NCBI GenBank assembly: GCA_030657355.1
Contig: CP131056.1
Location: forward strand, 3,306,501-3,370,500
Length of the DNA: 64,000 nt
Origin: Radicibacter daui
GTDB taxonomy: Bacteria > Pseudomonadota > Alphaproteobacteria > Radicibacterales > Radicibacteraceae
Direction: 5' to 3'
Part shown: positions 13,441 through 42,583 of the stretch, one piece after another
Layout: each line of letters opens with the position of its first letter
How positions within the stretch are numbered: the stretch's first letter is position 1
Made by a program: the position numbers and the translations under genes
Notes under the pieces: generated by a model
Databases searched by the model: none
What the model saw: only the letters and a program-made list of their open reading frames with translations
Told to the model about the DNA's origin: nothing

Positions 13441-13570
13441 TGTCCTCTTTCATCCGGACTATACCGTCGGCCCCGGAGTTTCACCGGATCTGCTGACCTT
13501 GCGCCTTGAGGGACACAAGCGCTCGCGGGCTATACCGCCGGTGGGGAATTGCACCCCGCCCTGAGAACAG
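13441..13570 (-). ncRNA. FMN riboswitch (RFN element)
   Basis: Strong match, reading leftward, to the conserved RFN blocks: AGGGCGGGGTG, TTCCCCACCGGCGGTA, AGCCCGCGAGC, GGTCAGCAGATCCGGTG, CCGGGGCCGACGGTATAG and TCCGGATG followed by GAGGA. The order and spacing fit the six-helix FMN aptamer. It lies 88 bases upstream of ribH2, with the sequestering hairpin in between, so it should lower ribH2 expression when FMN is abundant. Confidence 0.97.
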
Positions 13571-13575
13571 AATGA

Positions 13576-24686: not shown

Positions 24687-25916
24687 TCAGGCGGCGCGGA
24701 AAATCAGCGACGTGTTGATGCCGCCAAAAGCGAAGTTGTTCGACATCCAGTGTTCTGCATCCACCTCACGAACCGAGCCGGCGATATAATCCAGTTCCGC
24801 ACAGGCTGGATCGACCGCCTCGAGATTGGCGATCGGGATAACCATCTTCTCCCGGATCATCTCAATACCAAGCCAGGCTTCAATGGCGCCGCAGGCACCC
24901 AGGCTGTGTCCGAAATGGCCCTTCAGCGTATGAAGTGGCACTGCCCGCCCGAACACATCGCGCGTTGCATGGCTCTCGGCGACATCCCCGTGATCCGTTG
25001 CCGTGCCATGGCCGTTGACGAGTGCGATGTCATCGGCAGCAAGCCCGGCAGACGCCAGGGCCTGCTGCAGGGCGATCCGGATCGTGCCAGGCACGGGCTG
25101 GGTTACATGCGCGCCGTCGGAGTTGGAGGCAAACCCCACAATCTCCGCCAAAATGGTCGCACCGCGCGCCCTTGCATGTTCATATTCTTCAAGGATGAGC
25201 GTCGCCGCTCCCTCGCCGATCACAAGGCCGTCCCGGTTGCGGTCGAAAGGCCGCGGCGTCAGCTCCGGGTCATGATTGCGCACACTGGTGGCAAAAAGCG
25301 TATCAAACACCGCCACCATGGTCGGGCACAGCTCCTCTGCCCCGCCGGCAATCATCACATCCTGAAGGCCGAACCTGATGGCCTCATAGGCATAGCCGAT
25401 ACCCATGCTGCCGGAAGTGCAGGCCGTGGAAGTCGGGATGATGCGGCCGGAAATGCCATAGAGCAGGCCGATATTCACCGCTGCCGTATGGCTCATCATC
25501 TGGATATAGCTGGTTGCGGTAATGGTGTTGGAATTGCCGGTTTCCATCAGTCTGGCAAAGCCCACCACCGGCGCCGTGCTGCCGAAGGACGAGCCATAGG
25601 CAATACCCACCCGCCCGCCGCGCAGCAGGGCCTTTTCCTCCAGCAAGCCGGCCTCGCCGAGTGCCGCAGCCGTGGCGCTTGCCGCCATTTCGGCGACACG
25701 GCCCATTCCCCTTGCCTGCTTGCGGGTAAAGCGGGTGCCGGTTTCAAAGCTGCTTACCGGGGCGGCCAGCCGGGTGCGGAGGTCATACCGCCCTTCCCAG
25801 TCTTCCATCCGGCGAATACCGGTCTGCCCGGCCAGCATCTTTTCCTTGATGCCCGCCCAGTCATCCCCGAGCGCGGTGATGCCGGCCATGCCGGTTACGA
25901 CGACACGCCGGTTCAT
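24687..25916 (-). CDS. apeR: APE cluster beta-ketoacyl-ACP synthase (ApeR-like KS)
   Basis: Ketosynthase of 409 residues, FabF type. The catalytic triad is complete: C166 (TACTSGS), H303 (NGHGTATDHGD) and H337 (LKGHFGHSLGACG). In APE clusters the last KS gene, ApeR, works as a homodimer alongside the ApeO/ApeC pair; the position after KS, DH and KR genes matches that order (N-O-P-Q-R). The ATG at 25916 overlaps the KR stop (ATGA). Last gene of the leftward operon. Confidence 0.9.
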   Translation of the reverse strand: MNRRVVVTGMAGITALGDDWAGIKEKMLAGQTGIRRMEDWEGRYDLRTRLAAPVSSFETGTRFTRKQARGMGRVAEMAASATAAALGEAGLLEEKALLRGGRVGIAYGSSFGSTAPVVGFARLMETGNSNTITATSYIQMMSHTAAVNIGLLYGISGRIIPTSTACTSGSMGIGYAYEAIRFGLQDVMIAGGAEELCPTMVAVFDTLFATSVRNHDPELTPRPFDRNRDGLVIGEGAATLILEEYEHARARGATILAEIVGFASNSDGAHVTQPVPGTIRIALQQALASAGLAADDIALVNGHGTATDHGDVAESHATRDVFGRAVPLHTLKGHFGHSLGACGAIEAWLGIEMIREKMVIPIANLEAVDPACAELDYIAGSVREVDAEHWMSNNFAFGGINTSLIFRAA

Positions 25917-26638
25917 AACATTCCCCCGTTCACGCTTATGACCTGCCGGGTGATGTAACCCGCCTCGTCCCCGCATAGGAAAGCGACAGCCGCAGCCACC
26001 TCGTCTGCCGTGCCGTAGCGCCGCATCGGAATGAGCGCTTCCAGATGTTCTGCCGGAAGCCCCTCGGTCATCTGTGTCTCGATGACGCCGGGAGCCACGG
26101 CATTGACTGTTATCTTCCGCTTGGCCAGTTCCAGCGCCAGCGCCTTGACCGCACCGATGATGCCGGCCTTGGACGCGGAGTAGTTGACCTGACCGCGATT
26201 TCCCGCGAGCCCGGCAATGGAGGTGAGCGCCACAATACGCCCTCCCTTGCGGGCCTGGATCATCGGCATCACCAGCGGCCGGGCAACATTGTAAAAGCCG
26301 TCAAGATTGGTACCGAGCACGGCATCCCAGTCCTCCCCCTCTAGGGCGGGAAACGGCGCATCACGGGCAATACCGGCATTCATCACCAGCCCGTAGGGCG
26401 CGCCATGGCTTGCCATGAAGGCTTCCAGCGCATCAGCGGTTGCCTGGCGGTCTGCCACATCGAACTGGAGGCGCAAGGCGGCCTGCCCGCAGGCTTCCAC
26501 ATCCCGCGCGACGGCGCCGGCGCCTTCCGCATCGGAATTATAGTGGATTGCAATGTCGAAGCCGTCCCGCGCCAGCCGGCGGGCAACGGCGGCGCCAATG
26601 CCCTTGCTGGCGCCCGTCACGAGAATGAGTCTAGCCAA
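25913..26638 (-). CDS. apeQ: APE cluster 3-ketoacyl-ACP reductase (ApeQ-like KR)
   Basis: SDR-type ketoreductase of about 241 residues. It has VTGASKGIGAAVARRLA at the N-terminus, NAG, the catalytic Ser and Y-x3-K (LTSIAGLAGNRGQVNYSASKAG), and the FabG-like end ISVNGGML. It reduces the beta-keto group after each polyene extension. I prefer a TTG start at 26638 overlapping the dehydratase stop by eight bases; an ATG at 26674 adds 12 residues (MISGTFHRKTKK) that look unlike a KR and overlap more. It precedes the ApeR-like KS. Confidence 0.9.
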   Translation of the reverse strand: MARLILVTGASKGIGAAVARRLARDGFDIAIHYNSDAEGAGAVARDVEACGQAALRLQFDVADRQATADALEAFMASHGAPYGLVMNAGIARDAPFPALEGEDWDAVLGTNLDGFYNVARPLVMPMIQARKGGRIVALTSIAGLAGNRGQVNYSASKAGIIGAVKALALELAKRKITVNAVAPGVIETQMTEGLPAEHLEALIPMRRYGTADEVAAAVAFLCGDEAGYITRQVISVNGGML

Positions 26639-27107
26639 TTTCTTCGTTTTTCTGTGAAAAGTCCCGGAGATCATCCGGCTGATATACGTTGACCCTGGCG
26701 CTTACTACCAAACGCCCCTCGTTATGGACAGTCCCGTCAAAGACGGCCATCTGCCCGTCTTCAAAGATGCCTTCGACTGCCACATCAAGCTGCGAGCCCG
26801 GTACAAACCACGGCTCCAGAACCGACATGCGGCGTGTCCCGAGAAGGAAACCGACGCGGGGCTCTACCTTCTGCTGCGCCAGATGCTGGCGATACCCCGC
26901 GATGGCCGCGATGGTCTGGGCGATATATTCAATCCCCACATGGGACGGCACCCCCCGGCCCGGCCGGTAAAACAGGCTGGCCGCCGTGACCTGCACCTTC
27001 ACCGTCATGCTGTTGGCGCTGGCCGCAGCAATCCGGTCAATCAGCAGCATGGGCGGCGCATGCGGCACCAGCGCCGCGACGGGCGGGAAGCCTGCGAGTT
27101 CGCTCAT
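26631..27107 (-). CDS. apeP: APE cluster 3-hydroxyacyl-ACP dehydratase (ApeP-like, hotdog fold)
   Basis: Protein of 158 residues with a FabA/FabZ-like hotdog fold. LVPHAPPMLLIDRI carries the active-site histidine, and the helix HVGIEYIAQTIAAIAGY holds the acidic position. It removes water from the beta-hydroxyacyl-ACP to leave the trans double bond of the polyene. No enoyl reductase is encoded in the cluster, as expected for a polyene. ATGA overlap with the upstream KS gene (27104-27107). Confidence 0.88.
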   Translation of the reverse strand: MSELAGFPPVAALVPHAPPMLLIDRIAAASANSMTVKVQVTAASLFYRPGRGVPSHVGIEYIAQTIAAIAGYRQHLAQQKVEPRVGFLLGTRRMSVLEPWFVPGSQLDVAVEGIFEDGQMAVFDGTVHNEGRLVVSARVNVYQPDDLRDFSQKNEEIG

Positions 27108-28300
27108 GCCGCACCGGCCCCGCGGGCCAGAATCACAGCCGCGTTGCTGCCACCAAAAGCAAACGAACTGCTCATCATGGCTATCCTGCCTTTCGGCACG
27201 AGGCGGGCGCCTGTCACCAGCGCCAGTTCCGGCAGGGCCGGATCGGCGGCGCCATCCCAGACATGGCGGGGCAGCGACATGCCCGGTACAGCCAGCAGCA
27301 GCCAGAGGATAGCCGCCTCGATGGCGCCGGCAGCCCCCAGCGTATGGCCCGTAAGGGGTTTGGTGGAACTGGCGGCGACGTGGTGGCCCAGCACCTCGAC
27401 AACGGCGCGGGCTTCCATCTCGTCATTGAGCGGCGTTGCCGTGCCATGAAGGTTAAGATAGCTGATCTCGTCCGGGGTCAGGCCCGCTTCGGCCAGCGCC
27501 ATGCGCATGGCGGCAATTGCGCCCTTGCCTTCCGGGTGCGGCGCGCTGGGGTGATGGGCATCGGAAGACTCCCCGACGCCAAGCAGGGCAACCGGCGCCT
27601 CTTCCCGCCCCATCAGGAAAAGGGCGGCGCCTTCGCCGATATTGATGCCATCGCGATTGGTACTCATGGGATTGCACAATGTCGCCGAGACCGAGCTCAA
27701 CGCATCGAACCCGGCAACGGTAAAGCGGCAAAGCCCGTCAACGCCTCCCACCAGCACTGCGTCGCAAAGCCCCATACGCACAAGCCGGCGCCCGGCCGCC
27801 AGAACCTTGGCACTGGAGGAACAGGCGGTGGAAATGGTGTAGGCGGGCCCGGCCACGCCCAGCGCATCGCGCAGAAACTCCGCCGGCCCGCTCAACTCCT
27901 GCCGGCGATAGACAAAACCATCCGGAAGCCGCCCGTCCTGCAAATAATGGGCATAGGCCGCGGTGCCCTCCTCTATTCCGGAGGTGCTTGTTCCCAAAAC
28001 GACGCCAATGCGCCCGGCGCCATACCGGCCAAGGGCAGCTTCTATCTCGGGCCGGATTTGCCGGGCTGCAGCCCATAAAAGCCGGTTCGTGCGGGTATCA
28101 TGGGCGTCCATGCCGGCAGGCAAGGCCTCCAGCGTGCCTGGCACCTCGCCAACCACTACCTCGCGCTCCGGCAGATAGCCCGGCCGGGCCGCCATGCTGG
28201 AAGGTCGCAGCCCCTGCAACGCGGCAACGGTCTCGTCCTTGCCAATGCCGAGGGCGGAGACAATGCCCAGCGCCTGCAGATACAGCGCAGCTTCCTGCAT
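27104..28300 (-). CDS. apeO: APE cluster beta-ketoacyl-ACP synthase (ApeO-like KS)
   Basis: Ketosynthase of 398 residues with a complete triad: C160 (STACSSSA), H285 (LNLHGTATPLND) and H319 (KPLTGHTLGAAG). In characterised APE systems ApeO forms a heterodimer with the chain-length factor ApeC, here the product of 38734-39471. It begins three bases after the DUF3261 lipoprotein gene. N-terminus (YLQALGIVSALG) and length fit APE-type ketosynthases rather than housekeeping FabF. Confidence 0.9.
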   Translation of the reverse strand: MQEAALYLQALGIVSALGIGKDETVAALQGLRPSSMAARPGYLPEREVVVGEVPGTLEALPAGMDAHDTRTNRLLWAAARQIRPEIEAALGRYGAGRIGVVLGTSTSGIEEGTAAYAHYLQDGRLPDGFVYRRQELSGPAEFLRDALGVAGPAYTISTACSSSAKVLAAGRRLVRMGLCDAVLVGGVDGLCRFTVAGFDALSSVSATLCNPMSTNRDGINIGEGAALFLMGREEAPVALLGVGESSDAHHPSAPHPEGKGAIAAMRMALAEAGLTPDEISYLNLHGTATPLNDEMEARAVVEVLGHHVAASSTKPLTGHTLGAAGAIEAAILWLLLAVPGMSLPRHVWDGAADPALPELALVTGARLVPKGRIAMMSSSFAFGGSNAAVILARGAGAA

Positions 28301-28303
28301 GGC

Positions 28304-28930
28304 CTACTCCCCAAGCTTTCGGGATTGGATGGTCAGGCTGTAACCAAGATCAAGATTCGCAAGGCTGGCGGCGCCTTGCCATTGGTCCGGCTGCGGCCGG
28401 TTTATCTCGACAAGGGGTTTGCCGGTCTGGCGATCCAGAATGGCACGCCCCCCTTCAAGCTCAAGCAGTTCGGCTGTCTGCGGCAAGGCCTGCTTCAGCA
28501 CGTCCTGCGGCCAGTAGACCAGGAGCACATCCGCCAGCGCGCGGCGGGGATCGACCTGTCGGGGCAGCCAGTCCGCAGCGTTCACCTCCAGTGACGAGGC
28601 AGTCCAGTGTGCGTCGATTGCCCGTCGTCCGAGGCCATCCAGCATGACGATATGCACATCGCCGGGCTTCATAGCCAGCCGGGCGGCAAACTCGTTGGTG
28701 CTGCCATCAGGGGCGGTCGCGACAATCTGCTGCTCGACATCAACAGTGCCGGCACTTGCCGGCCACGGCTCGCGCGGCAGCTCAAGGGCAAGGCCCGGCT
28801 GAAGCTCGATCCGTGTAGATACAGCCGTAGTGGCAGCGGGAACCGCAGTGGTTCCGCTTGCGGAAGGGTGGGAGGCAGCGCAGCCGCTCATCAGCAGCGC
28901 GGCAAGGATCAGGCAGGCGTAGTGGCGCAT
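28304..28930 (-). CDS. apeN: DUF3261 lipoprotein of the APE cluster (ApeN-like)
   Basis: Lipoprotein of 208 residues. The signal sequence MRHYACLILAALLMSGCAAS has the lipobox MSGC; the mature part contains a Thr/Ala/Ser-rich linker, then a globular domain with DVHIVMLDGLGRRAID and YWPQDVLKQALP. DUF3261 proteins occur almost only in APE-type clusters beside the MMPL exporter and LolA-like gene, and are thought to help place the pigment lipid in the outer membrane. Its start overlaps the flavoprotein gene by 22 bases. Confidence 0.85.
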   Translation of the reverse strand: MRHYACLILAALLMSGCAASHPSASGTTAVPAATTAVSTRIELQPGLALELPREPWPASAGTVDVEQQIVATAPDGSTNEFAARLAMKPGDVHIVMLDGLGRRAIDAHWTASSLEVNAADWLPRQVDPRRALADVLLVYWPQDVLKQALPQTAELLELEGGRAILDRQTGKPLVEINRPQPDQWQGAASLANLDLGYSLTIQSRKLGE

Positions 28931-30141
28931 AACTCGTACAACATGTTGAGATAACGATCAGTCTGGGCGACCAGCTTGTTTTCACGGTTCCACGCATATC
29001 CGGCCAGAATTGAGACGATCATGCGCTTGAGCGGGGAATCTTCTTCGGGCTGGTTGAAAATGATGTCCTGCAAGCGGCCGTCATACCAGGCGCTGACATA
29101 GGAGCGGAACGTATCGACCCCCTGACCGAGCGGGCCCGCATAGGCCGCCTCCCAGTCAACCACCTCCCCGCGGCAGCGGCTGATGATCGCCCTGGCGGCA
29201 AGTTCGGCGGAATAAAGCGCGATGGTAACGCCGGAAGAAAAGATGGGGTCGAGGAACCCTGCCGAATTGCCGAGCAGCACATAACCGTCACCATGAAGCT
29301 CGTGGGCCCTGCTGGCATATCCGGCAAGGCTTGAAAGCTCGCGCACCGGCCGGGCGCCGGAGAGCAGGCGCGCCAGATCGGTGGCGGCGACCAACCGCCC
29401 GAAGGCTTCCCCGACACTGCCTGCCCCGGCGGCATCTTCCTCCGGGAACACCACACCGACAGACGCGCTGTTGTCTGAAAACGGGATCAGCCAGTACCAG
29501 ATGTCCTGCCGGTCCGGATGAACGGTGATCAGTATCCTTTCCCGGTCAAAATCCGGCAGCCCCGGCTGCAGGGCAAAATGGCCGAAAATCGCCCGTCGCG
29601 GCATCAGCCTGCTGGCATCCGGCATATCCAGGAGGCGCGGCAGCACACGGCCAAAGCCGCTGGCATCCACGACAAAGCGGGATGAAAGCTGCCCGGCTCG
29701 TCCGGCTTCATCCACAAAGGAAAGGTGGCAGTCCCCCTCCCTCAGCCGGGCCGCCTCGACCTTGTGCCCGAAGCGCACCCTGGCGCCGGCCTTGGCGGCC
29801 TCTTCGGCCAGCAGGGCATCGAAGCGGGCGCGCTGCACCTGAAAGGTCGTTCCCCAGCCGGCACTCTCGAAATTCTCGCGAAAATCAATGGACCGCCGCA
29901 TCTCGGCCCGCTGGAAAACCGCCCCGGTCTTGAACTGGAAGCCCGCCTTGCTGACCGCCTCAAGCAGGCCGCAGCGCTCAAGGATATTCATGCTGTTGGG
30001 CAGCAGGCTCTCGCCAATCATGAAGCGCGGAAAATGCTGGGCCTCCAGCACGGTGACGCAAAGACCTGCATCTGTCAGGAACTTGGCGGCTACGCTGCCG
30101 GCCGGCCCCGCGCCAATAATCGCCACATCACAATCATGCAT
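28909..30141 (-). CDS. FAD-dependent oxidoreductase, halogenase/geranylgeranyl-reductase-like, in the APE cluster
   Basis: Flavoprotein of 410 residues. The N-terminal FAD motif is VAIIGAGPAGSVAAKFL (residues 6-22), followed by GESLLPNSMNILE typical of flavin halogenases and geranylgeranyl reductases. Residues 215-220 read WYWLIP, matching the WxWxIP motif of flavin-dependent halogenases. A second FAD contact is the GNSAGFLDPIFSSGV segment. Homologues occur in flexirubin and some APE clusters. It may hydroxylate, desaturate or halogenate the aryl head or polyene; which one cannot be told from sequence. It is encoded between the exporter and the DUF3261 gene. Confidence 0.85.
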   Translation of the reverse strand: MHDCDVAIIGAGPAGSVAAKFLTDAGLCVTVLEAQHFPRFMIGESLLPNSMNILERCGLLEAVSKAGFQFKTGAVFQRAEMRRSIDFRENFESAGWGTTFQVQRARFDALLAEEAAKAGARVRFGHKVEAARLREGDCHLSFVDEAGRAGQLSSRFVVDASGFGRVLPRLLDMPDASRLMPRRAIFGHFALQPGLPDFDRERILITVHPDRQDIWYWLIPFSDNSASVGVVFPEEDAAGAGSVGEAFGRLVAATDLARLLSGARPVRELSSLAGYASRAHELHGDGYVLLGNSAGFLDPIFSSGVTIALYSAELAARAIISRCRGEVVDWEAAYAGPLGQGVDTFRSYVSAWYDGRLQDIIFNQPEEDSPLKRMIVSILAGYAWNRENKLVAQTDRYLNMLYELCATTPA

Positions 30142-30144
30142 TCT

Positions 30145-32427
30145 TCAACCCTCGCCGCCACGGGCAGTGTCACGGGCCATCAGCGGTGCCAGCAGCCAGG
30201 CCGCCACCAGACCAAGGGCGATCACACTGCCGATATCACTGACAAGCGGGACCGAGCTGGTGGCCAGCAAACCGAAACCGAAAAGGCTGCTTAAAAGGCA
30301 AAGGAAGACGGCAAGGCTGGTTCCGTGCCCTTCGGTCACCCCCCGGCTCTCGGCAATAAAAAGCACGTAATCGGCCCCCACTCCGAACACCAGAACGAGT
30401 GCCATCGTCGTAAAGAGATTGCTCGGCACACCCAGCAGGAGACTGCCCAGAAGCGCGGCCAGAACCGCCCCGCAAGGCGCCGCACAGACACAAAGCCCGG
30501 TAAACCAGCCATACCGCCAGGTCGCAATGGCAAGAGCGGCAAGAGCGGTCAGCGCCAGGGCGAAACCGGCCTTGTGCCGGTAATCCCCCAACTGGCGGGA
30601 GATCATCTCGACCGGATCAATCAGACGGGCATAGTCCGCCTGCCGGACCACCGCCTCCACCCGCGCCACATCGCTTACTCCCCGCAACTGCACCAGATCG
30701 CTGCCGTCGTCATAAGCAAGGGCAGCCAGTTCCGGCAGGGCGGCACGCACAGCTCCGTCAAAAGCAAGTCCCGCACTCGCCGGCCCGTTGACCGGCACGG
30801 GCAGGTTCTGCGCCAGCTTGTCGCCATAGGGCCCATAGAGGGCCTGCAAGGCCAGCGCCCGGTCCTGCTGCTGGCGCCTGAGCGAAGGGATAAAGTCGGC
30901 AGGGCTCAACAGCCCTTGAAGCGCCCCCTCTACGATCAGCGGCGCAAGCTTTGCCCGCAGTTCTTCTTCACGTTCAAGGCGCTGTTCGGCACTGGCTCCG
31001 CTTACCCGGATCACAAAGGGCCGGGCGCCAAGGGAGAGCACATTCGAGATGGTTGCCGCTTCATCGCGCAGGTCCGGGTCAACGCGCCCGAGCCGCCTTA
31101 TGTCGTCGTCGCCCCGCACCAGCATCACGGCCAGCGCTGCCGCGGCAATCATGACCAGCAATGCCGCTATTCGGGCGCGCCGGCCAAGGCGCAGGCGCTC
31201 ATAAAAGCGCTCGACTGCCGCAAGCGCAGGAGCCGCCAGCCAGAAGGGGCGCACAGGCCGCTGCGGCAGCACCGGGCCGACGAAAAAAACCGTCAGGAAC
31301 GCCGCGATCAGCCCCGTGGCAGAAAAGACGGCGATCTGGAAAAGCAGCACGGCCGGAGTGATTGCCAGCGCGGCAAATCCCGCGACCGACGTGACGAGCC
31401 CAAGCAAAAGCCCCGGCAGGATACGCCGCAACCTTGCCTGCCCATCCCCGCCCGGCAAGGGCACCGTTGCCAGATGCAGCGCATAGTCAACGGCCATGCC
31501 GATCAGGCTGGTGCCGAAAACAAGCGCGATCACATGCACCGAGCTGAAGCAGAACAGTACGGATGCAAATCCGGCCAGCACGCCGCTGCCAACCGTCAAG
31601 AGGCCCAGCAGCAGTGGGACCCAGGAGCGGAAAACCAGCAGGAACATGGCAACAATAGCAAGGCTCGCCCAAAGGCCGATGCGCTGCACATCCAGCCGCG
31701 CCGAGACCTGCTGTGCCTGCGAGAAGAACACCTGGCCGGTGCGCCGGAGCGAAACACCGTCCGGCAGATCCAGCCCGGCCAATATCTGCGAAACACCGCT
31801 CACCCACTGTCCGGCAGCAAGGCCGGTTCCGTCCCTGAGGGCAACATAGACCGGCGCGTGGAACAGCCCGTCCTTTTCAACGATGCCCGAGCCGCCGCCC
31901 GCCTTTTCAGCCAGTTCCAGCAGGAAGGGTGGCAGCAGGAAGAAGGGATCAGCTGCCAGAGAACGGGCACTGACCGGCATTTCGGGAGAAAAAAGAGTCT
32001 GCAAGGCACGCTGGTAAAGCGCCTCGCCCTTGCCCTGCATCAGCGCCTGCCGGTCCTTTTCCGCCAGTAACCCGGGCTCATACAGGCCATAGAGCGCCAT
32101 GAGCTTGCCCAGACGCTCCTGCTGGTTTGCAGGCGAGGTGACCCCTGCCGTCCCCGGCAGCGCAAGCAGCTTTTGCGCAAGATCGCCCGCTGCTGTGGTT
32201 ACAACCCCACGATCCTTGCCGGAGAGCAGGAAGATTGCACGCCCTGCATCCTGCGCAACGATATGGCGCGCCGCCTCTACATCATCCGCCCCGCCTGATT
32301 GCGGGCTCGCCTCCGCCCCGACAAGGGAGAGAAAATCACCGCTGAAACTGCCGGTGCCGGTCTCCAGCCGCCAGACGGTTGCAGCCAGCACCGCCAGCAG
32401 GAGCGCACACCACAGGAAAGCCCGCAC
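30145..32427 (-). CDS. apeM: MMPL/RND-family exporter of the APE cluster (ApeM-like)
   Basis: Inner-membrane transporter of 760 residues in two repeats, each with a large periplasmic domain and a bundle of about six membrane helices. The family motifs are visible in both halves (GTSLIGMAVDYALHLA and VFGVGADYVLFIAES). In APE clusters this MMPL protein is the predicted pump moving the aryl-polyene lipid across the inner membrane, working with the LolA-like carrier encoded next to it. It starts four bases after that gene and ends four bases before the flavoprotein gene. Confidence 0.9.
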   Translation of the reverse strand: MRAFLWCALLLAVLAATVWRLETGTGSFSGDFLSLVGAEASPQSGGADDVEAARHIVAQDAGRAIFLLSGKDRGVVTTAAGDLAQKLLALPGTAGVTSPANQQERLGKLMALYGLYEPGLLAEKDRQALMQGKGEALYQRALQTLFSPEMPVSARSLAADPFFLLPPFLLELAEKAGGGSGIVEKDGLFHAPVYVALRDGTGLAAGQWVSGVSQILAGLDLPDGVSLRRTGQVFFSQAQQVSARLDVQRIGLWASLAIVAMFLLVFRSWVPLLLGLLTVGSGVLAGFASVLFCFSSVHVIALVFGTSLIGMAVDYALHLATVPLPGGDGQARLRRILPGLLLGLVTSVAGFAALAITPAVLLFQIAVFSATGLIAAFLTVFFVGPVLPQRPVRPFWLAAPALAAVERFYERLRLGRRARIAALLVMIAAAALAVMLVRGDDDIRRLGRVDPDLRDEAATISNVLSLGARPFVIRVSGASAEQRLEREEELRAKLAPLIVEGALQGLLSPADFIPSLRRQQQDRALALQALYGPYGDKLAQNLPVPVNGPASAGLAFDGAVRAALPELAALAYDDGSDLVQLRGVSDVARVEAVVRQADYARLIDPVEMISRQLGDYRHKAGFALALTALAALAIATWRYGWFTGLCVCAAPCGAVLAALLGSLLLGVPSNLFTTMALVLVFGVGADYVLFIAESRGVTEGHGTSLAVFLCLLSSLFGFGLLATSSVPLVSDIGSVIALGLVAAWLLAPLMARDTARGGEG

Positions 32428-32430
32428 CCG

Positions 32431-33057: not shown

Positions 33058-33460
33058 CGAATGCCTCCACCAGAGTGATGAAGCAGTCCGGCGAGCGGAA
33101 CTGCATTTCCCCGCTAACCTTCTCCACAGCAACCTGGATGGTGCTGGCCTTTGTCATCTTCTCGCCGGTGGCGGCATCCCGGATCAGATAATCCACGCAC
33201 AGCCGGTTTTCGTATTCCTTGAGTGTCGTCTGGATATCCAGCACCTGACCGAACCGGCCGGGCCGGATATACTTCACCTTCATGTCGACGATCGGCCAGA
33301 AATAACCGGACTGGTCCATCTCCGGATAATTATAGCCAATCATCCCGAGAAGATCGGACCGCGCCGCCTCCATGAAGGCGATGTAGTTGCCGTGCCAGAC
33401 CACCCCCATCGGGTCCAGATGGTTGAACTGCACCTTGATTGCTGTTCTGGCCGTTATCAT
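33050..33460 (-). CDS. apeK: 4HBT-type acyl thioesterase of the APE cluster (ApeK-like)
   Basis: Hotdog thioesterase of 136 residues, YbgC/4-hydroxybenzoyl-CoA thioesterase type. The N-terminal motif is VQFNHLDPMGVVWHGNYIAFME, in which the Asp of LDPMGVV is the catalytic acid. The family hydrolyses acyl-CoA or acyl-ACP thioesters; in APE clusters a role in releasing chains or in editing is likely. Translationally coupled to the glycosyltransferase/acyltransferase gene by ATGA (33457-33460) and to the LolA gene. Confidence 0.88.
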   Translation of the reverse strand: MITARTAIKVQFNHLDPMGVVWHGNYIAFMEAARSDLLGMIGYNYPEMDQSGYFWPIVDMKVKYIRPGRFGQVLDIQTTLKEYENRLCVDYLIRDAATGEKMTKASTIQVAVEKVSGEMQFRSPDCFITLVEAFGA

Positions 33461-35205
33461 TTCGCCAATGACCCTTCTTGCGGCGCCGCTTCAGGCCCGG
33501 CCGGTTGCTGATCAGGGCGGGCAGCCCAGAAGTCATAGAAATTGAACCACTGGCCCGGCGCGCGCAGAACCAGCCTTTCCAGCCAGCGCGCATAGTGCGC
33601 CGCGTTGGCAGCGATTGCCGCAGACCGCCTGGCCCGGGGCAGGATGATCCTGTCCGCCAGCTTGTCGCATGCCAGCCGGTATCCCTGATCTTCACGCCAG
33701 GCGGCGGCCATATAGACCGGCTTTTGCAAAAGATGGGCGAGGATATAGGGCCCTTGCGGGAATTCTGCCGCTTCGCCCAGAAAGGGTACGCTCACGCCGC
33801 GCCCCTCGCCGGAAGGGGGCAGCCGGTCGGCGGCGATAACCACCCATTCACCGCGCGCCACTTTCTCGCTGAGCGCCATGGCAGTGCCCGGCCCCATATC
33901 CTCGATCTCGATCAGGTCGACCTGTGAGCGGGCGGAGGCTTGCTGAAGAATGCGCGCAAACTTTGCCGCGTTTTTCTGGTGCAGCAGGACATTGACGCGG
34001 AAGTCCCGCTCCATGCTGGCAATCGCCCGGATCACCTCGATGTTCCCGAAATGGGAGACGAAGAGGATGATGGCCTCATCCTTCGGCAGGAAGGAAAAGA
34101 GACTGTCAGCCCCTGCCGGCAGGCGCACATCATCTGTCGTTATCTGGCCGCTCCAGGCCGCAATCTTGTCGAGGAGCGCACCGCCGAATTGCAAAAAATG
34201 CCCGAAGCTGCCGGGCACCAGCACACCGGCCGGGGTACCCACGCGCCGGACCCGGGCCAGGAACGCGCGGGAGGCATCCCGCGCCGTCCTGCCGCTGGCA
34301 TAGAAATAGAAGATTACCGGCAGCATGGCCCAGGAGCACAGACGCCGCCCGAAAAGCGCGTGGACTGCGAACAGGAAACGAAGGCCCAAATACCCGCCCC
34401 GCTCCCCAAGGTTTGCCCAGTTCTGGCGCTCCGCCCCCCCTGCCGCTGACGGGCCGACAGCCGGACCGCGCGCCCAGCGCGCGCCCCGCGCCAGATAACC
34501 CGGCAGCCGCCGCACCATCCCGAAGAAAAGGCGCGTATGCATCCAGCTGATACGCACATTGTCCGCCAGCCCGCGGAAATTCGAGAGATTGCCGGCAGGG
34601 TATGTCACGCCGACAGGCAACTGCCGGACCGGAACGCCGCGCCAGAACAGCCGGACCATGATCTCGGTATCAAAATCCATACGCCGGCCAACCGGCTCCT
34701 CGCGCCATACGGCGAGGCTGGCTTCCACGGGATAGACCCGAAACCCGCACATGCTGTCGCGAATGACGAAGGAGAGTGTCTCCACCCATACCCAGAAATG
34801 CGTGATCCAACGCCCCAGCTTTCGCCCCAGCGGGATCGAGCGGTCATATTGCGGCACACCGGTTACCAGCGCCTGCGGCGCCTCCCGCGACAGGCGCATC
34901 ATCTCGTCCAGCCGGGCCAGATCATGCTGCCCGTCGGCGTCGATCTGCGCGGCGTGGCTGAAGCCGGCGCGCGAGGCAAGCTCCAGCCCCTTGATGACGG
35001 CAGCGCCCTTGCCGGCATTGACCGGCAGCCGCTCGACATGAACTCCCCCGGCAGGATCGTTCAGTGCGGCAATGTGGATGGCTGCCTCCGCCCGCGAGCC
35101 ATCATCGATGACGTACAGGGTAAGCCCGGCATCCCGCAGCCGCCGGACAATCTCCGGCAGGGCCTTGTAATGATTGCAGGTCGGAATGACTGCGCAGATT
35201 TTCAT
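33457..35205 (-). CDS. apeJ: Glycosyltransferase family 2 / LpxL-like acyltransferase fusion (ApeJ-like)
   Basis: Bifunctional protein of 582 residues from the ATG at 35205, which overlaps the ligase stop (ATGA); an in-frame ATG at 35223 is less likely. Residues 1-230 are a GT2 domain (VIPTCNHYKALPEIV; YVIDDGSRAE; the metal-binding QIDADGQHDL). From about residue 280 to the end is a lysophospholipid or lauroyl acyltransferase domain with the H-x4-E motif HFGNIE. The fusion is normal for APE clusters and is thought to build the lipid or sugar anchor of the pigment. The donor sugar is unknown. Confidence 0.88.
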   Translation of the reverse strand: MKICAVIPTCNHYKALPEIVRRLRDAGLTLYVIDDGSRAEAAIHIAALNDPAGGVHVERLPVNAGKGAAVIKGLELASRAGFSHAAQIDADGQHDLARLDEMMRLSREAPQALVTGVPQYDRSIPLGRKLGRWITHFWVWVETLSFVIRDSMCGFRVYPVEASLAVWREEPVGRRMDFDTEIMVRLFWRGVPVRQLPVGVTYPAGNLSNFRGLADNVRISWMHTRLFFGMVRRLPGYLARGARWARGPAVGPSAAGGAERQNWANLGERGGYLGLRFLFAVHALFGRRLCSWAMLPVIFYFYASGRTARDASRAFLARVRRVGTPAGVLVPGSFGHFLQFGGALLDKIAAWSGQITTDDVRLPAGADSLFSFLPKDEAIILFVSHFGNIEVIRAIASMERDFRVNVLLHQKNAAKFARILQQASARSQVDLIEIEDMGPGTAMALSEKVARGEWVVIAADRLPPSGEGRGVSVPFLGEAAEFPQGPYILAHLLQKPVYMAAAWREDQGYRLACDKLADRIILPRARRSAAIAANAAHYARWLERLVLRAPGQWFNFYDFWAARPDQQPAGPEAAPQEGSLAK

Positions 35206-36899
35206 GGGGACCGGGCATCCCATTTCAGTACGCCGCTGGCGTGCTCCTCGCCGGCCACAAGATAGCGAAAGGCGATCCTCGGGCGCTGCGGGTCCTGCTC
35301 AAGCACCAGGTCCACCTCGGCTCCCGGCACCAGCGGACGGCGGAACTTGAGCGGCCCGACCTCAGAGAGATCGGCCGGCATTTCAAACAGGGTACGGGCA
35401 AGTTCTACGGCCCAGTCGAGCTGAACCACACCGGGCAGCAGCGCGAATTCGGCAAAATGCCCTTTGAAATAGAGCAGTTTTTCGTCAAGGCGCAGCCGCA
35501 CCCGATAACACCGCTCGCTTTCCCTGATTTCCTCCAGCACGGGGATGCCCGCAGCCTCCGCCTCACCGGGCTCGAAAAGCGAGGCCAGCAGGTGATAGGG
35601 GCGCTTGCCCTGGCTGTCCGCCGGCATTTCTTCCACGAAGCGCCAGTGCTGCGGCAGAGCCGCAGCTTCTTCATACCGGGCGAGCTCGGCCCTCAGCAGG
35701 CGGCCAAACCGGAAAGTGCCCAGATCGGCAAGGCGCTCCGCGCCGGCTGCTGACGGCACAATTACCGCCGCCAGACGGGCTGCCCCGCTCCCGTCACCGG
35801 GAAACACAACGGCATCGCTCACCAACTCGTTTTGCAGCAACCGCCGCTCGACCGCGGAAATGGAAACGCGCCTGCCGGCTATCTTAACCACCCTGTCCGC
35901 CCGCCCCTTGAGTTCAAAGCGCCCGATCTGCGGCGCCATGACCGCAAGATCCTGGGTTTCAAACCAGCTCTGCCCAGCGACATAGACGGCCTTGACGGTC
36001 AGGCAACCGGCAGCGTTGCCGGCAACCTCCACCCCCGGCAACGCCGACCAGAGCAGTCCACCGGTCCCGGCAGCATCCTGCTGCTTCCAGGCAAGAGCCC
36101 CGGTTTCGGTGCTGCCATAGATTTCCGTGGGGAAAAAGCCAAGGCAACGCGCGGCCTCGTTTGCCGTTTCCGGCTCAAGGGGGCCGCCTGCGCTGAAAAC
36201 CACGCCGGGCCCGGCGCCGGGCGCGGGCGCTGCGTGCAGGGAGCGCAGATGAGCCGGCGTGGCAATGAGGATATCCGCCGGAGCAAGGTCGGCGGCAACA
36301 GCCTCCCAGCGCTCGACCTGTTCAGCCTTGAAGGGCCGCCCGGCGATGACCGGCCATAACAGCCTGAAGACGAGGCCGTAGAGATGCTGGTGCGAAACGA
36401 AGCCGTATGTGCAGCCGGCAGCGTCCATCCCCGCGCCCCAGTGGCGCTCAAGCTCCGCCACCTCGCTCTCCAGCTGGGCGAGGGTCTTGGGAACCTCCTT
36501 CACCGCTCCGGTAGAGCCGGAGGTGAAAAACACCAGCCTGCATTCCTCCGGCGCCGGCAGCGGGACGGACGCGGTGTCGGCGTCACCGAGAGCCAGATAA
36601 CCGGCAATTGCCGCATCATCCATCAGCTGGTCAAAGCTCTGCGCGATTTCAGCCAGATAACCGGGCCGGTCATTGGCAGGCAGCACCACTGTGCCGCCAC
36701 TGCGCCAGATCGCTACCAGCGCCACAAGGAAAAGCCGGGCCGACCGGCAGCTGAGCGCGATACGCCGGGCACCCATGTGAGGCGCGAGCCGGTCGATCTG
36801 GCTGGAGATATCTGCGGCTGAAACACGGCGTCCGGCTTCAAGACACACGGTGCGAGACCGGTGTTCCGGCGCCAGCAGGGCATCAAACAGGCCGCTCAC
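35202..36899 (-). CDS. Acyl/aryl-AMP ligase fused to an ApeI-like dehydratase domain
   Basis: Protein of 565 residues. Residues 1 to about 455 are an adenylate-forming ligase: the ATP loop FFTSGSTGAVKEVPKT (125-140), IYGSTETGALAWKQ, and GRADRVVKIAGRRVS. It would load an aryl acid such as 4-hydroxybenzoate onto an ACP (ApeH role). The last 110 residues (from about 455) form a hotdog dehydratase with YFKGHFAEFALLPGVVQLDWAVE, as in ApeI. In the classical cluster these are two consecutive genes, apeH and apeI, so this is a ligase-dehydratase fusion. It follows the membrane-protein gene in an ATGA overlap. Confidence 0.88.
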   Translation of the reverse strand: MSGLFDALLAPEHRSRTVCLEAGRRVSAADISSQIDRLAPHMGARRIALSCRSARLFLVALVAIWRSGGTVVLPANDRPGYLAEIAQSFDQLMDDAAIAGYLALGDADTASVPLPAPEECRLVFFTSGSTGAVKEVPKTLAQLESEVAELERHWGAGMDAAGCTYGFVSHQHLYGLVFRLLWPVIAGRPFKAEQVERWEAVAADLAPADILIATPAHLRSLHAAPAPGAGPGVVFSAGGPLEPETANEAARCLGFFPTEIYGSTETGALAWKQQDAAGTGGLLWSALPGVEVAGNAAGCLTVKAVYVAGQSWFETQDLAVMAPQIGRFELKGRADRVVKIAGRRVSISAVERRLLQNELVSDAVVFPGDGSGAARLAAVIVPSAAGAERLADLGTFRFGRLLRAELARYEEAAALPQHWRFVEEMPADSQGKRPYHLLASLFEPGEAEAAGIPVLEEIRESERCYRVRLRLDEKLLYFKGHFAEFALLPGVVQLDWAVELARTLFEMPADLSEVGPLKFRRPLVPGAEVDLVLEQDPQRPRIAFRYLVAGEEHASGVLKWDARSP

Positions 36900-37477
36900 G
36901 AGGCCTGCCTTTCATGGCGGCGCCGGCAATAACGGCGCACGGGCCATTCGCCCACAAAAAGCGCGCCCACCAGCAGATAGGAAACAAGCCCGGTATAAAG
37001 CGCCCAGTATTCTGTCGGCCAGGCAAGCCCCGCCCAGGTACAAAGGCCCGCATTCAGGATAAAGAACACCACCCAGACCAGCGTCAGCCGCCGGGTGTAC
37101 TGCACGCCATAGGCATCAAGATCGGGCTCGCGCAGCCGCGCCAGCCGCTCGATCAGGGACGGCGGAAAGACCAGCGTCGTGCCGAACACGGCGGCAAACA
37201 CCAGATTGACCAGAACCGGATAAAGCCGGACCGCATCCAGCTGCCCCAACTGGTGAAAACCGGCCAGCGCCGCCGCGACACCAAGCGCAAGCACACCGGC
37301 AAGCCGCCGCCCCGAGGCAAAAAACAGCCCCGCTCGCAGCACGATCACCACCAGCAGCACAGCCAGCGACCAGCCGGCCGAGGCCATGCGTTCGGTGAAA
37401 TAGACACTGAACGGATAACAGACCGTCACGACGATCAGGAGAGCGTCAAGCGCTCTCCTAGCTGCCGAGGAGGGCAT
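36896..37477 (-). CDS. apeG: APE cluster integral membrane protein (ApeG-like, COG4648 type)
   Basis: Membrane protein of about 193 residues with roughly five hydrophobic segments (ALDALLIVVTVCYPFSVYF; SLAVLLVVIVLRAGLFF; LVFAAVFGTTLVF; LVWVVFFILNAGLCTWAGL; ALYTGLVSYLLVGALFVGEW). It matches the small membrane protein found between the ACP and AMP-ligase genes in APE clusters; its function is not known. I use the ATG at 37477, which overlaps the ACP gene by 20 bases; the ATG at 37501 overlaps it by 44. Confidence 0.8.
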   Translation of the reverse strand: MPSSAARRALDALLIVVTVCYPFSVYFTERMASAGWSLAVLLVVIVLRAGLFFASGRRLAGVLALGVAAALAGFHQLGQLDAVRLYPVLVNLVFAAVFGTTLVFPPSLIERLARLREPDLDAYGVQYTRRLTLVWVVFFILNAGLCTWAGLAWPTEYWALYTGLVSYLLVGALFVGEWPVRRYCRRRHERQAS

Positions 37478-37706
37478 GGATCTTGCCGACAACATCATCA
37501 ACCGTCCGGACCGACTTGAACTCGGCCGGCGATATCTTCTTGCCGGTCAATTCCTGAAAACGAACCATCAGATCGACAGCGTCGATGCTGTCCAGCTCAA
37601 GATCCTCGAACAGCAGGGCATCGGGCTTTACGCGCTCTGCCGGCACATCAAACAGCTCGACCAGAAGCTCCTGCAGCTTCTGGTAAACATCCTCACGGCT
37701 ACGCAT
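37458..37706 (-). CDS. apeF: Acyl carrier protein, APE cluster (second, ApeF-like)
   Basis: Acyl carrier protein of 82 residues, acidic and helical, with the phosphopantetheine site serine in LELDSIDAVDLM. The arm would be attached by the divergently encoded phosphopantetheinyl transferase at 39994-40533. APE synthases use two ACPs; which one carries the starter and which the malonyl extender cannot be told here. Eight-base overlap with the first ACP gene. Confidence 0.92.
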   Translation of the reverse strand: MRSREDVYQKLQELLVELFDVPAERVKPDALLFEDLELDSIDAVDLMVRFQELTGKKISPAEFKSVRTVDDVVGKIHALLGS

Positions 37707-37968
37707 TGGAAACGGCCTCCCTAGCCACCAGAAAAGCCGCGAGATCCCTGACCGAGGCGAAATGCGCCTTCACATCATCTTTCTTGGGATCGATCCGGAC
37801 CTTGTATTTTTTCTGCAGCTCGACGCCCAGCTCAAGCGCATCGATTGAATCCAGCCCCAGCCCCTCGCCAAACAACGGCTCACTGCTGTCGATATCCTCG
37901 GGCTTCACATCTTCGAGATTAAGCGTCTCGATGATGAAGAGTTTCAGCTCATTTTCCAGCGACGTCAT
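37699..37968 (-). CDS. apeE: Acyl carrier protein, APE cluster (first, ApeE-like)
   Basis: Acyl carrier protein of 89 residues with the modification serine in LGLDSIDALELGVEL. The N-terminal ENELKLFIIETLNLEDVKPEDID and the central KKYKVRIDPKKDDVK are typical of APE ACPs. It holds the growing polyene as a thioester. Starts in an ATGA overlap with the acyltransferase gene (37965-37968) and runs into the second ACP gene. Confidence 0.92.
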   Translation of the reverse strand: MTSLENELKLFIIETLNLEDVKPEDIDSSEPLFGEGLGLDSIDALELGVELQKKYKVRIDPKKDDVKAHFASVRDLAAFLVAREAVSNA

Positions 37969-38741
37969 GCTGATAACCTGTCCATGAAATAATTATTTAT
38001 AACGCCCGTCAGGGCACGGGCCCGCAGCGGCCTTGGCTGCTCGTTATCGTTTTCTCCCCCGAAAACCAGTGGCGTCCCGACCTCCAGAACGTAGTCGATA
38101 CGCGACGCGGGTACGTCATACCATTTTGATCCTTTTTTCAGGGTGTCGTGGTTACACCGCACCACTACCGGGATCAATGGGGCGCCGGCCTCAATCGCAA
38201 TATTGGCAGCGCCGCGTTGCAACGGCCCCAGCACCTGCCGCGGCGCGGTACGGGTGCCTTCCGGAAAGATCACGATGCTGGCGCCGGAGCGTAGCTGGCG
38301 TGCCGCCTCGTGGATCACATTCTCCGCATCCTCGCCGTTGCGGATATAGCCGGTCGCCCGCACCACCCCGCCCAGAAACGGGTTTCGCAGCAGGCTCTGC
38401 TTCACCACGCACTGGCAACGCTTCATCATGGCAAGAATGATCACGACATCCAGCAGGGTCGGGTGGTTGGCAATGATCACAGCCCCCGACGCCGCGCTCA
38501 GCCGTTCCGCACCCCTCACCTCAACGCTCGCCACGTCCATCCAGCGCAAGAGCAGGACGAACCCGCCAAAACTCCGGCACACCAGCCCCTGCGCCGCTGC
38601 CTGCCGTCGCTCCGGATTGCGGATGGCCAGCAACAGCAGCGGAAAAACCGTCGTCGCCAGCAAAAAGCCGCCAACGCCAAAGACGGTAAAAGAAGCCGCC
38701 GTCGCCAGTACCCGGCGCCATTTCGCAAGGCTTCTATACAT
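37965..38741 (-). CDS. apeD: PlsC-type 1-acyl-glycerol-3-phosphate acyltransferase-like protein, APE cluster (ApeD-like)
   Basis: Acyltransferase of 258 residues. One or two N-terminal hydrophobic segments (AASFTVFGVGGFLLATTVFPLLLLA) are followed by the H-x4-D motif NHPTLLDVV and the FPEGTRTAP block that binds the acceptor phosphate. In APE biosynthesis such a protein is thought to help attach the polyene acyl chain to its lipid anchor. Eight-base overlap with the upstream chain-length-factor gene. Confidence 0.87.
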   Translation of the reverse strand: MYRSLAKWRRVLATAASFTVFGVGGFLLATTVFPLLLLAIRNPERRQAAAQGLVCRSFGGFVLLLRWMDVASVEVRGAERLSAASGAVIIANHPTLLDVVIILAMMKRCQCVVKQSLLRNPFLGGVVRATGYIRNGEDAENVIHEAARQLRSGASIVIFPEGTRTAPRQVLGPLQRGAANIAIEAGAPLIPVVVRCNHDTLKKGSKWYDVPASRIDYVLEVGTPLVFGGENDNEQPRPLRARALTGVINNYFMDRLSA

Positions 38742-39471
38742 TGCGCACCAGCCTCCATCCGGCGTTACGGCCTATCAACCCCGCCGACATCTGCCCGGCA
38801 TCGAGTGCAAAGTCACAAAAGAGCCGGGCGTGCTGCCTGCAGCGATCGCCAACACCATCCCCCGGAACATAGCTGGCCGTGAAGCTCCCTTGCTCCAGCC
38901 CGGCATTTTCCAGCACCGTTGCAATAGCAACCGGTGCGGCATCCGGGTCGTCATGGGCGGCATATATCTCCGGCAACGGCAGATCGATATAGACCAGAAC
39001 CACTGGCTGTGACGGGGCTTCGGCAAGCTGGCAGAAAGCCTCTGTCAGCGCGCAAACCACCGTATCCTCACCGGCTGCAATTGCGGTGTGGCTGGCAGTT
39101 ATCCGCCAGTTGATGGAGGCAATGCCGGCGATAGCGTTGTGCACGGCCATGCTGAAATCAGCGGGCGACGCCGTGCCGTCGCTGGCAACCTGCTCGATCA
39201 GCCTGACGGTGCGCTCCATATCGCCGTGGCGCGAGGCGAACACGACGCGCGGATTTTCCAGTGTCTCCAGCGCATGGGTGAGCGTCTGGATCGATATCCG
39301 GCCAAATGGATTGAGCCGCCGCCGCCACATCGGCTGGACAGCCGTTGCCAGCGAGCCTGCCTCGCCGGCCGGCAGGCGCGCACCTTCCGGTTCGCTGATC
39401 TCGACCAGCGAGCCATCAAGTGCGCCCCAGAACCGGGTCCGGCGAAAACGGAGACTGAAAGCGGTCATCAC
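38734..39471 (-). CDS. apeC: Ketosynthase-like chain-length factor of the APE cluster (ApeC-like)
   Basis: KS-like protein of 245 residues, shorter than a catalytic ketosynthase and lacking the active-site cysteine. Where a KS has TACSS, this protein has FSMAVHNAIAGIASI, the pattern of the APE-type beta-ketoacyl synthase-like N-terminal domain. ApeC is reported to pair with ApeO as a KS/CLF heterodimer and so helps set polyene length. In E. coli-type clusters a methyltransferase gene stands just upstream; here a small lipoprotein gene does. Confidence 0.87.
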   Translation of the reverse strand: MMTAFSLRFRRTRFWGALDGSLVEISEPEGARLPAGEAGSLATAVQPMWRRRLNPFGRISIQTLTHALETLENPRVVFASRHGDMERTVRLIEQVASDGTASPADFSMAVHNAIAGIASINWRITASHTAIAAGEDTVVCALTEAFCQLAEAPSQPVVLVYIDLPLPEIYAAHDDPDAAPVAIATVLENAGLEQGSFTASYVPGDGVGDRCRQHARLFCDFALDAGQMSAGLIGRNAGWRLVRNV

Positions 39472-39480
39472 AGAGAACGG

Positions 39481-39879
39481 TCAGGAGGCAGAAGCAACCT
39501 TCACCGAGACCCCGGAAAGGATGTCATGCTGAAGATTATTGACCCAGCGATTATAGTTCCGGTGAATTTCGGTACCGTCATAAAGGAGATTGACGCTGTC
39601 CACATAGCGGATCGAGAATTTCTTGAGATCGAAATCCACCTCGACCTTGGCTTCTACATCCCGCGGCGAATAGGTCAGCACCAGCTTGCCCGGAGCCGTC
39701 TCAGACACGATCCAGTCACGGCCGGCAGCCACCTGCACGATCACGCTCTTGATGTCGGCCATGCTCAGCTTTTCCGTACCTGCCGGAAATTCCGCATCGC
39801 TCACCTGATAGATCGGCGCCCGGCACGAAACCAGAAGGCACATGAAAAGGGCTGCTACAGCAAACCGGAAAACACGCAT
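39481..39879 (-). CDS. Small lipoprotein, first gene of the APE operon
   Basis: Lipoprotein of 132 residues from the ATG at 39879, which has a strong AAGGGGGAG site. Signal peptide MRVFRFAVAALFMCLLVSC with lipobox LVSC. The mature part is about 115 residues, rich in beta-strand propensity, with a central DWIVSETAPGKLVLTYSPRDVEAKVEVDF stretch. I recognise no named family; small lipoproteins of this kind occur at the head of APE clusters. It leads the 17-gene operon, so its promoter region (39880-39993) controls all of it. Confidence 0.75.
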   Translation of the reverse strand: MRVFRFAVAALFMCLLVSCRAPIYQVSDAEFPAGTEKLSMADIKSVIVQVAAGRDWIVSETAPGKLVLTYSPRDVEAKVEVDFDLKKFSIRYVDSVNLLYDGTEIHRNYNRWVNNLQHDILSGVSVKVASAS

Positions 39880-39926
39880 TGAAAACTCCCCCTTGCATAT
39901 CAACGCATTCGTTTATGCATTTTATC

Positions 39927-39951
39927 GTCGGGATGGAACAGAAATCCCGAC
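39927..39951. promoter_or_regulatory. Inverted repeat in the APE / PPTase divergent promoter region
   Basis: Perfect eight-base arms GTCGGGAT (39927-39934) and ATCCCGAC (39944-39951), nine bases apart. It sits in the only control region of the APE cluster, between the divergent lipoprotein and phosphopantetheinyl transferase genes. It could be a regulator operator or an RNA hairpin in the leader of the transferase. No regulator gene is part of the cluster. Confidence 0.5.
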
Positions 39952-39993
39952 AGCACGACCATAAAGCTCAATCTGTTTCAGCAAGCTGACAAA

Positions 39994-40533
39994 ATGCCGA
40001 CAGAAAACAGCCTGGATACGATCCATGACAGCACCCCATTTTGGCGCTGGTGCTGGCTCGACGGGCAAGGCCACCATGAACGACCGGACCGCAGCCGCAC
40101 CTCGCAAAGGGCGCAGGAGCTTCTCCTATCTCTGGCACGCGACACGTTGCCAGAGTGCGATATCTCCTTTCAAAAGGACAAGGGTGGACGCCCTTGGATA
40201 ACAGCGAATGGCAAGCTGTACCACGCCAGCATCAGCCACAGCCGCCGGCTCATTGCCGTTGCCCTTAACCCTGCGGGGCCGGTGGGCATCGATGTCGAGT
40301 TTCGTGACCCTGGAAGGCGCATCGCTTCCCTCACGCGCTGGCTGACAGAGCAGGGTTATGAAGTGCCGGAGGGTGATTTTTACCGGGGCTGGTGTCGTTA
40401 CGAGGCCAGCTTAAAGGCACTGGGCAAAACCCTGCCATCCCCCATGGCTCTGACCGTTAGCCGCTGTGGAGATTGGCCCGAATATGAAGGGGCACTGGCG
40501 TGGGGAAATGCGCCCCTGATGGCGCCAGAATAA
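39994..40533 (+). CDS. Sfp-type 4'-phosphopantetheinyl transferase
   Basis: Enzyme of 179 residues that transfers phosphopantetheine from CoA to the ACP serine. The Sfp-family blocks are present: DKGGRPWI, the YHASISHSRRLIAVAL region, VGIDVEF with the Mg-binding Asp and Glu, and WCRYEASLKALGK. In the last block the usual KEA lysine is a tyrosine (YEA), a moderate deviation. It is divergent from the APE operon and almost certainly activates its two ACPs. A strong terminator follows directly. Confidence 0.88.
   Translation: MPTENSLDTIHDSTPFWRWCWLDGQGHHERPDRSRTSQRAQELLLSLARDTLPECDISFQKDKGGRPWITANGKLYHASISHSRRLIAVALNPAGPVGIDVEFRDPGRRIASLTRWLTEQGYEVPEGDFYRGWCRYEASLKALGKTLPSPMALTVSRCGDWPEYEGALAWGNAPLMAPE

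Positions 40534-40600: not shown

Positions 40601-42583
<1,983 letters not shown>

Follow-up and report, generated by a model that had tools for sequence, protein, structure and literature searches.

A probable aryl-polyene lipid operon with a halogenase-like flavoenzyme gene in the alphaproteobacterium Radicibacter daui

A stretch of 64,000 nucleotides of Radicibacter daui contig CP131056.1 (positions 3,306,501 to 3,370,500 of the forward strand; hereafter the window, whose own numbering is used throughout) was analysed for a putative pigment gene cluster. Between 24687 and 39903 its minus strand carries seventeen closely packed open reading frames (ORFs) that follow the order of the ape genes, and as judged from the sequence this locus is very probably a functional-looking aryl-polyene (APE) lipid operon. 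Gene content, gene order, family membership, conserved motifs and ketosynthase phylogeny were established for the locus, which adds one more to the alphaproteobacterial APE clusters already published.

The 18 proteins of the annotated ape region of Escherichia coli CFT073 were compared by BLASTP with the window ORFs of at least 50 codons. Seventeen of them found their best match at the expected place, collinear with the E. coli genes, with E-values between 1e-164 (ApeR) and 4e-9 (ApeN). A preliminary description had announced a full ape gene set in nearly the gammaproteobacterial order; the order was borne out, but ApeB remained unmatched in the window. Its gene list had also left out an FAD (flavin adenine dinucleotide)-dependent halogenase-like gene between apeM and apeN (28909-30141), and what it had called a ligase does contain an AMP-binding domain but is actually ApeH fused to the dehydratase ApeI. 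Nearly all junctions had been said to overlap: taking the longest ORFs, within some of which the true start is internal, 12 of the 16 do, and the other four leave 3 to 9 bases between neighbouring frames. The likely ATG of apeR at 25916 gives a 4-base overlap with apeQ. The span first given for the cluster, 24687-40533, was too long, since 39994-40533 is a divergent plus-strand phosphopantetheinyl transferase (PPTase) gene and the ape operon ends at 39903.

The enzymatic complement of an APE pathway was present. The dedicated acyl carrier proteins (ACPs), the ligase ApeH, the dehydratases ApeI and ApeP and the reductase ApeQ were all matched; the signatures of ketosynthase, ACP, dehydratase and ligase were found in the window proteins, and the Pfam ApeP-like and ApeI-like models both scored above their cut-offs. 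The set for lipid attachment and export (ApeD, J, K, L, M, N, G and A) was matched as well, weakly or partially for L, N and G; the MMPL protein (apeM), ApeL, ApeG and ApeA had no Pfam match at E≤0.001. A ketosynthase-chain length factor pair of the APE kind, ApeO-ApeC, is identified by the tree described below for ApeO and by solved relatives for ApeC. The best solved relatives of ApeO are 6qsp_A and 7f28_B. For ApeC, the solved sequences reaching E≤0.001 are just 7f28_A and 6qsp_B, both of which come from ApeO-ApeC entries; for ApeR, 4ewg ranks first and 7f27 second. 6QSP, 7F28 and 7F27 are published Ape ketosynthases of Xenorhabdus and Acinetobacter.

Ketosynthase phylogeny, which the preliminary description had named as a possible refutation, placed one enzyme with the ApeO proteins and the other with the ApeR proteins, and neither with FabF. 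The tree was built by a quick method, with Shimodaira-Hasegawa-like approximate likelihood ratio (SH-aLRT) support and without bootstrap, from 38 ApeO, 33 ApeR and three FabF proteins. These came from the window, from E. coli and from 36 of 96 loci with a window-type ApeJ; an ApeJ query had selected those loci, keeping the best 80 of 573 matches plus 16 more, and counts over them are not population frequencies. A single branch set each of the ApeO, ApeR and FabF groups off from the rest (SH-aLRT 100, 99 and 97), and the three FabF rows, namely the two of this genome and that of E. coli, lie outside the ApeO and ApeR sets. The window ketosynthases group with those of Thalassospira (SH-aLRT 99 for ApeR and 97 for ApeO), and together they sit, in each set, within a portion that is mainly alphaproteobacterial, with support of 99 in ApeR and of 93, not starred, in ApeO. 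Since FabF is the sole other type II polyketide synthase family included, the tree splits APE from fatty-acid enzymes and not every pigment ketosynthase; flexirubin and xanthomonadin ketosynthases are not in it, and by itself it does not exclude a hybrid or xanthomonadin system. ApeR, present in the window, is unassigned in several complete-looking Shewanella loci and is thus not universal in APE clusters.

The locus shares with the cluster of E. coli CFT073 17 of 18 genes, their order, the single strand and the overlapping frames. It differs in having no apeB within the window, in the apeH-apeI fusion, in the FAD gene inserted between apeM and apeN and in the PPTase gene alongside, which the E. 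coli ape cluster lacks according to PMC8253772. Two Thalassospira clusters (L048 and L050) have the identical order, including the fused gene, an FAD gene at the apeM-apeN junction and a divergent PPTase gene, with identities to the window proteins of 55-57% for ApeJ, 59-62% for the FAD enzyme and 75% for ApeR (L048). These loci of the same order were counted in favour of an APE operon. Their neighbourhood differs, an RpoD match being absent within flanks of about 10 kb. A search that covered few subscription journals found no paper on APE in Thalassospira.

The usual order in the 96 loci is C-D-E-F-G-H-I-J-K-L-M-(FAD)-(N)-O-P-Q-R, a few being rearranged (L047, L066, L088). Grouped by record title or by class label, thirty loci are alphaproteobacterial, among which L038/L054, L042/L057 and L045/L084 are repeats of the same contigs and L085 (Enhydrobacter) is presumed by us to belong to the class. 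The ApeH-ApeI fusion of the window comprises 565 amino acids, with Pfam AMP-binding at 111-275 and ApeI-like at 467-548, and E. coli ApeH and ApeI match separate parts of this single ORF (35202-36899). It occurs in 20 of the 30 alphaproteobacterial loci (nine are split and one is not scorable; 18/27 without repeats), in 10/11 betaproteobacterial loci (e.g. L101, L113, L117), in 2/53 gammaproteobacterial loci (one not scorable) and in one of two others, and was dropped as a point of novelty because it is common in alpha- and betaproteobacterial loci. The FAD gene (>200 bits) was present in 9/30 alphaproteobacterial (8/27 without repeats), 26/53 gammaproteobacterial, 0/11 betaproteobacterial and 1/2 other loci, and ApeB in 0/30, 30/53, 0/11 and 0/2, respectively; since several of the loci stop at the end of a contig, these counts are minimum values. 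Both the fusion and the halogenase-like gene therefore recur in other alphaproteobacterial clusters, and divergent PPTase matches were found at the same end of other alphaproteobacterial loci.

Several observations weigh against the favoured reading of the locus. ApeB was not found in the window (BLASTP, best E = 2) or genome-wide with the E. coli query, the latter search having no positive control; with ApeB missing, the head group would not be methylated by the ApeB route. The matches of ApeL, ApeN and ApeG to the E. coli proteins are weak or partial. The UbiC family is absent from this genome (the E. coli positive control was detected). A scan for sigma-70-like promoters in the interval between apeA and the PPTase gene returned none, and terminator-like sites were no commoner than in shuffled sequences, both scans being uninformative. 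Finally, the 53 gammaproteobacterial loci comprise 10 with the FAD gene and ApeB (the FAD gene being divergent in these), 20 with ApeB alone, 16 with the FAD gene alone and seven with neither, and neither gene was found in 21/30 alphaproteobacterial and 11/11 betaproteobacterial loci; the presence of one gene does not strictly go with the absence of the other. ApeB is, however, patchy across APE loci, and its absence consequently does not bar APE membership.

Chance resemblance was rejected on the 17 collinear BLASTP matches, and ordinary fatty-acid genes on the ketosynthase tree, in which the FabF proteins of the genome and of E. coli lie outside. It is very improbable that the locus encodes a hybrid system of the flexirubin or dialkylresorcinol type, or a true xanthomonadin system, in place of a plain APE operon. 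The NCBIfam flexirubin models LolA2_flexi and FlxB do match ApeL and ApeQ, but at 40 bits against a cut-off of 125 and at 273 against 340, and with both under their cut-offs a flexirubin cluster was rejected. Among solved structures the FAD enzyme is closest to 3nix, which we take to be a Bacteroidetes protein, and halogenase genes occur in xanthomonadin clusters; yet none of the Pfam matches of the 18 genes reads as a resorcinol-forming enzyme, and the gene order is that of the E. coli and Thalassospira ape clusters. A silent or decayed cluster that yields no product is unlikely too. The missing promoter match would suit such a cluster, as would a third-position guanine-plus-cytosine (GC) content of 0.73 in 16 of the 17 operon genes, compared with 0.81 in ten flanking genes, as in acquired DNA; every frame is nevertheless open, the junctions are tight, and the signature motifs of ketosynthase, ACP and dehydratase are preserved.

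Within the favoured APE lipid operon, one important question is whether the FAD enzyme, the most interesting part of the locus, halogenates the pigment, which can be tested. The protein has 410 residues and carries GAGPAG at 10, IGESLLP at 42, K71, WYWLIP at 215 and FLDPIFSSG at 296. Its solved relatives are 3nix and then the halogenases ChlB4 and PltA, with whose lysine K71 aligns. IGESLL, the lysine, WxWxIP and FxDPxFSSG were found in 38/38 aligned relatives, the window protein included. GxGxxG, WxWxIP and the lysine, which we take to be marks of flavin-dependent halogenases, are all present, and we presume a role in halogenases for the other motifs as well. The chances are about even that the enzyme instead hydroxylates or dehydrogenates the head group or chain: 3nix is named just 'Flavoprotein/dehydrogenase', monooxygenases are also among the solved matches, and the NCBIfam halogenase model CmlS scores far under its cut-off (154 vs 900 bits), whereas Pfam Trp_halogenase is well above its own (91 vs 21 bits) and the motifs and the PltA/ChlB4-aligned lysine are all kept. 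That the operon makes a brominated or chlorinated xanthomonadin-like APE lipid, with a flavin halogenase taking the place of ApeB in an alphaproteobacterial lineage and an aromatic starter obtained without UbiC, is a tentative and rather doubtful proposal. Xanthomonas xanthomonadin clusters are alike by description, combining a type II polyketide synthase aryl polyene with a halogenase gene, and PMC3691225 describes brominated pigments carrying 0-2 bromines. A literature search on brominated aryl polyenes with a flavin enzyme returned nothing, and no relative emerged when viral contigs were scanned for exact matches to short peptides from the FAD enzyme.

By analogy with studied APE systems, a route can be proposed for which the reaction steps, the yellow pigment, its location in the membrane and its protective role are all extrapolated. 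The ApeH half would activate an aromatic acid of the 4-hydroxybenzoate type and transfer it to one of the ACPs, ApeE or ApeF, whose phosphopantetheine arm would come from the neighbouring PPTase. ApeO-ApeC would then extend the chain with malonyl-ACP; in each round ApeQ would reduce, and the ApeI domain and ApeP dehydrate, giving a conjugated polyene. ApeR would act as second ketosynthase. ApeK is predicted to free the acid, ApeD and ApeJ to join it to a lipid, and ApeM, ApeG, ApeL, ApeN and ApeA to carry that lipid to the outer membrane. Where E. coli uses ApeB methylation, the FAD enzyme may tailor the head group, perhaps by halogenation, which is speculative. These assignments follow the E. 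coli gene functions of Table 1 in PMC8253772, which also reports ApeR as necessary for initiation in Xenorhabdus and predicts that the E. coli route uses UbiC for the starter. UbiC was absent from each of the seven alphaproteobacterial genomes with ape genes in which it was sought, namely the present genome and six from the 16 others (E. coli control positive), which raises the question of where a hydroxybenzoate-type starter comes from. Four aromatic amino acid ammonia-lyase homologues are encoded elsewhere in the genome (C1:4204002, 3770950, 350661 and 1072448; none in the window), and one of them could supply an aromatic starter. A search for an XanB2-like chorismatase (PF21168, presumably the fitting family) was empty but uninformative, as its controls were empty too.

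Table 1. Genes of the ape locus and the adjoining transferase gene in the window
Feature	Coordinates	Strand	Basis
apeA, small lipoprotein, LVSC lipobox, ATG start about 39879	39481..39903	-	translation; E. coli ApeA E=4e-21
apeC, chain length factor (Ketoacyl-synt_2)	38734..39471	-	PF13723 E=3e-49; 7f28_A, 6qsp_B
apeD, lysophospholipid-type acyltransferase	37965..38741	-	PF01553; E. coli ApeD E=4e-53
apeE, ACP, LDSID phosphopantetheine site	37699..37968	-	PF00550; NCBIfam PRK09184 above cut-off
apeF, ACP, LDSID site	37458..37706	-	NCBIfam PRK05350 above cut-off
apeG, membrane protein	36896..37501	-	E. coli ApeG E=3e-23, over ApeG C-terminal half
apeH-apeI fusion, acyl-ACP ligase and hotdog dehydratase	35202..36899	-	Pfam AMP-binding, ApeI-like
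apeJ, glycosyltransferase-acyltransferase fusion	33457..35223	-	Pfam; E. coli ApeJ E=2e-145; Thalassospira 55-57%
apeK, 4HBT thioesterase	33050..33460	-	PF03061; E. coli ApeK E=3e-37
apeL, LolA-like periplasmic carrier, start probably internal to ORF	32431..33132	-	E. coli ApeL E=7e-11; LolA2_flexi below cut-off
apeM, MMPL/RND-type exporter	30145..32427	-	E. coli ApeM E=3e-38; weak NCBIfam RND matches below cut-off
FAD-dependent halogenase-like oxidoreductase	28909..30141	-	motifs; PDB 3nix, ChlB4, PltA
apeN, DUF3261 lipoprotein (LolB-like)	28304..28930	-	PF11659 E=2e-24; E. coli ApeN E=4e-9
apeO, elongating ketosynthase	27104..28300	-	6qsp_A, 7f28_B; NCBIfam PRK09185 above cut-off; tree
apeP, dehydratase	26631..27107	-	Pfam ApeP-like E=3e-17; top solved relative 6qsr_B
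apeQ, ketoreductase (FabG2 type)	25913..26674	-	NCBIfam PRK05653.1-5, fabG_rel above cut-off; E. coli ApeQ E=6e-101
apeR, second ketosynthase	24687..25916	-	NCBIfam PRK09116 631 bits, above cut-off; 4ewg, 7f27; tree
Sfp/AcpT-like PPTase, adjoining the operon	39994..40533	+	Pfam ACPS 24.9 bits (cut-off 25); GIDVE, WCRYEASLK

The distribution of such clusters was assessed in 385 genomes sampled from the class, this one included, with at most three candidates scored per genome. A window-type ApeJ was found in 16 of the 384 others, full-length in 14 and in two pieces in two, which makes 15 full-length and two two-piece proteins with its own. Eleven more genomes have weaker matches in which the two parts of ApeJ are separate (in G044 on different contigs). 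Ten such loci (L172-L181) were inspected: an ApeO-like ketosynthase is nearby in 9/10 (40-45% identity) and an FAD enzyme like that of the window in 9/10 (29-35%), with ACP, MMPL and ligase matches too. Judged from these matches, they are APE-like clusters of a more distant type, with a divided ApeJ, and may be of the Acetobacteraceae or xanthomonadin kind. APE-like clusters thus occur in at least 26 of the 384 other genomes sampled. Together with the published alphaproteobacterial clusters, this shows that the rarity outside gamma- and betaproteobacteria implied by the preliminary description was overstated. PMC8776678 gives APE clusters in 19/43 acidophilic and 28/96 acetous Acetobacteraceae strains, which are alike by description in having an adenylate-forming protein and a 'probable halogenase' among the linked genes; others are reported in Bombella apis (PMC8262860) and Pseudovibrio (PMC5563371).

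Two further observations concern the origin of individual loci. The Ape ketosynthases of L051, on a contig titled Deltaproteobacteria from a metagenome-assembled genome, fall among alphaproteobacterial ones, owing to transfer or to a mislabelled bin. Clusters of ape genes were also seen in alphaproteobacteria with small genomes, namely in Candidatus Paracaedibacteraceae (L042/L057) and in L043 (G020, a 1.7 Mb genome with the same family code). We take this group to be intracellular symbionts of protists, in which a membrane pigment would be unexpected.

The R. daui genome (5.06 Mb, two contigs, 100% complete by estimate) is the sole one of its order in the sample and holds a clean, complete-looking APE operon. 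As the preliminary description had stated, the intact-looking cluster lies beside housekeeping genes: rpoD (40601-42583), dnaG, yqeY and carA adjoin on one side, and a transfer RNA (tRNA) with a CAU anticodon (24491-24567), a GGDEF protein and a tripartite tricarboxylate transporter lie on the other. Twenty-nine rpoD loci of the class, the best-scoring from 75 other genomes and reaching at most 1.5 kb past rpoD, were compared. A CAU tRNA follows rpoD in the same orientation, no more than about 400 bases away, in 7/29, and at 1.4 kb in one more; these tRNAs are identical to that of the window at 53-64 of 77 positions. This suggests that the PPTase gene and the ape operon were inserted between rpoD and the tRNA in this lineage, which is put forward as a suggestion only because 21/29 rpoD loci show no such tRNA. 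The lower third-position GC of the operon genes fits acquisition, as weak evidence. Elsewhere in the window, a flavin mononucleotide (FMN) riboswitch was detected at 13438-13572 on the minus strand (119.6 bits).

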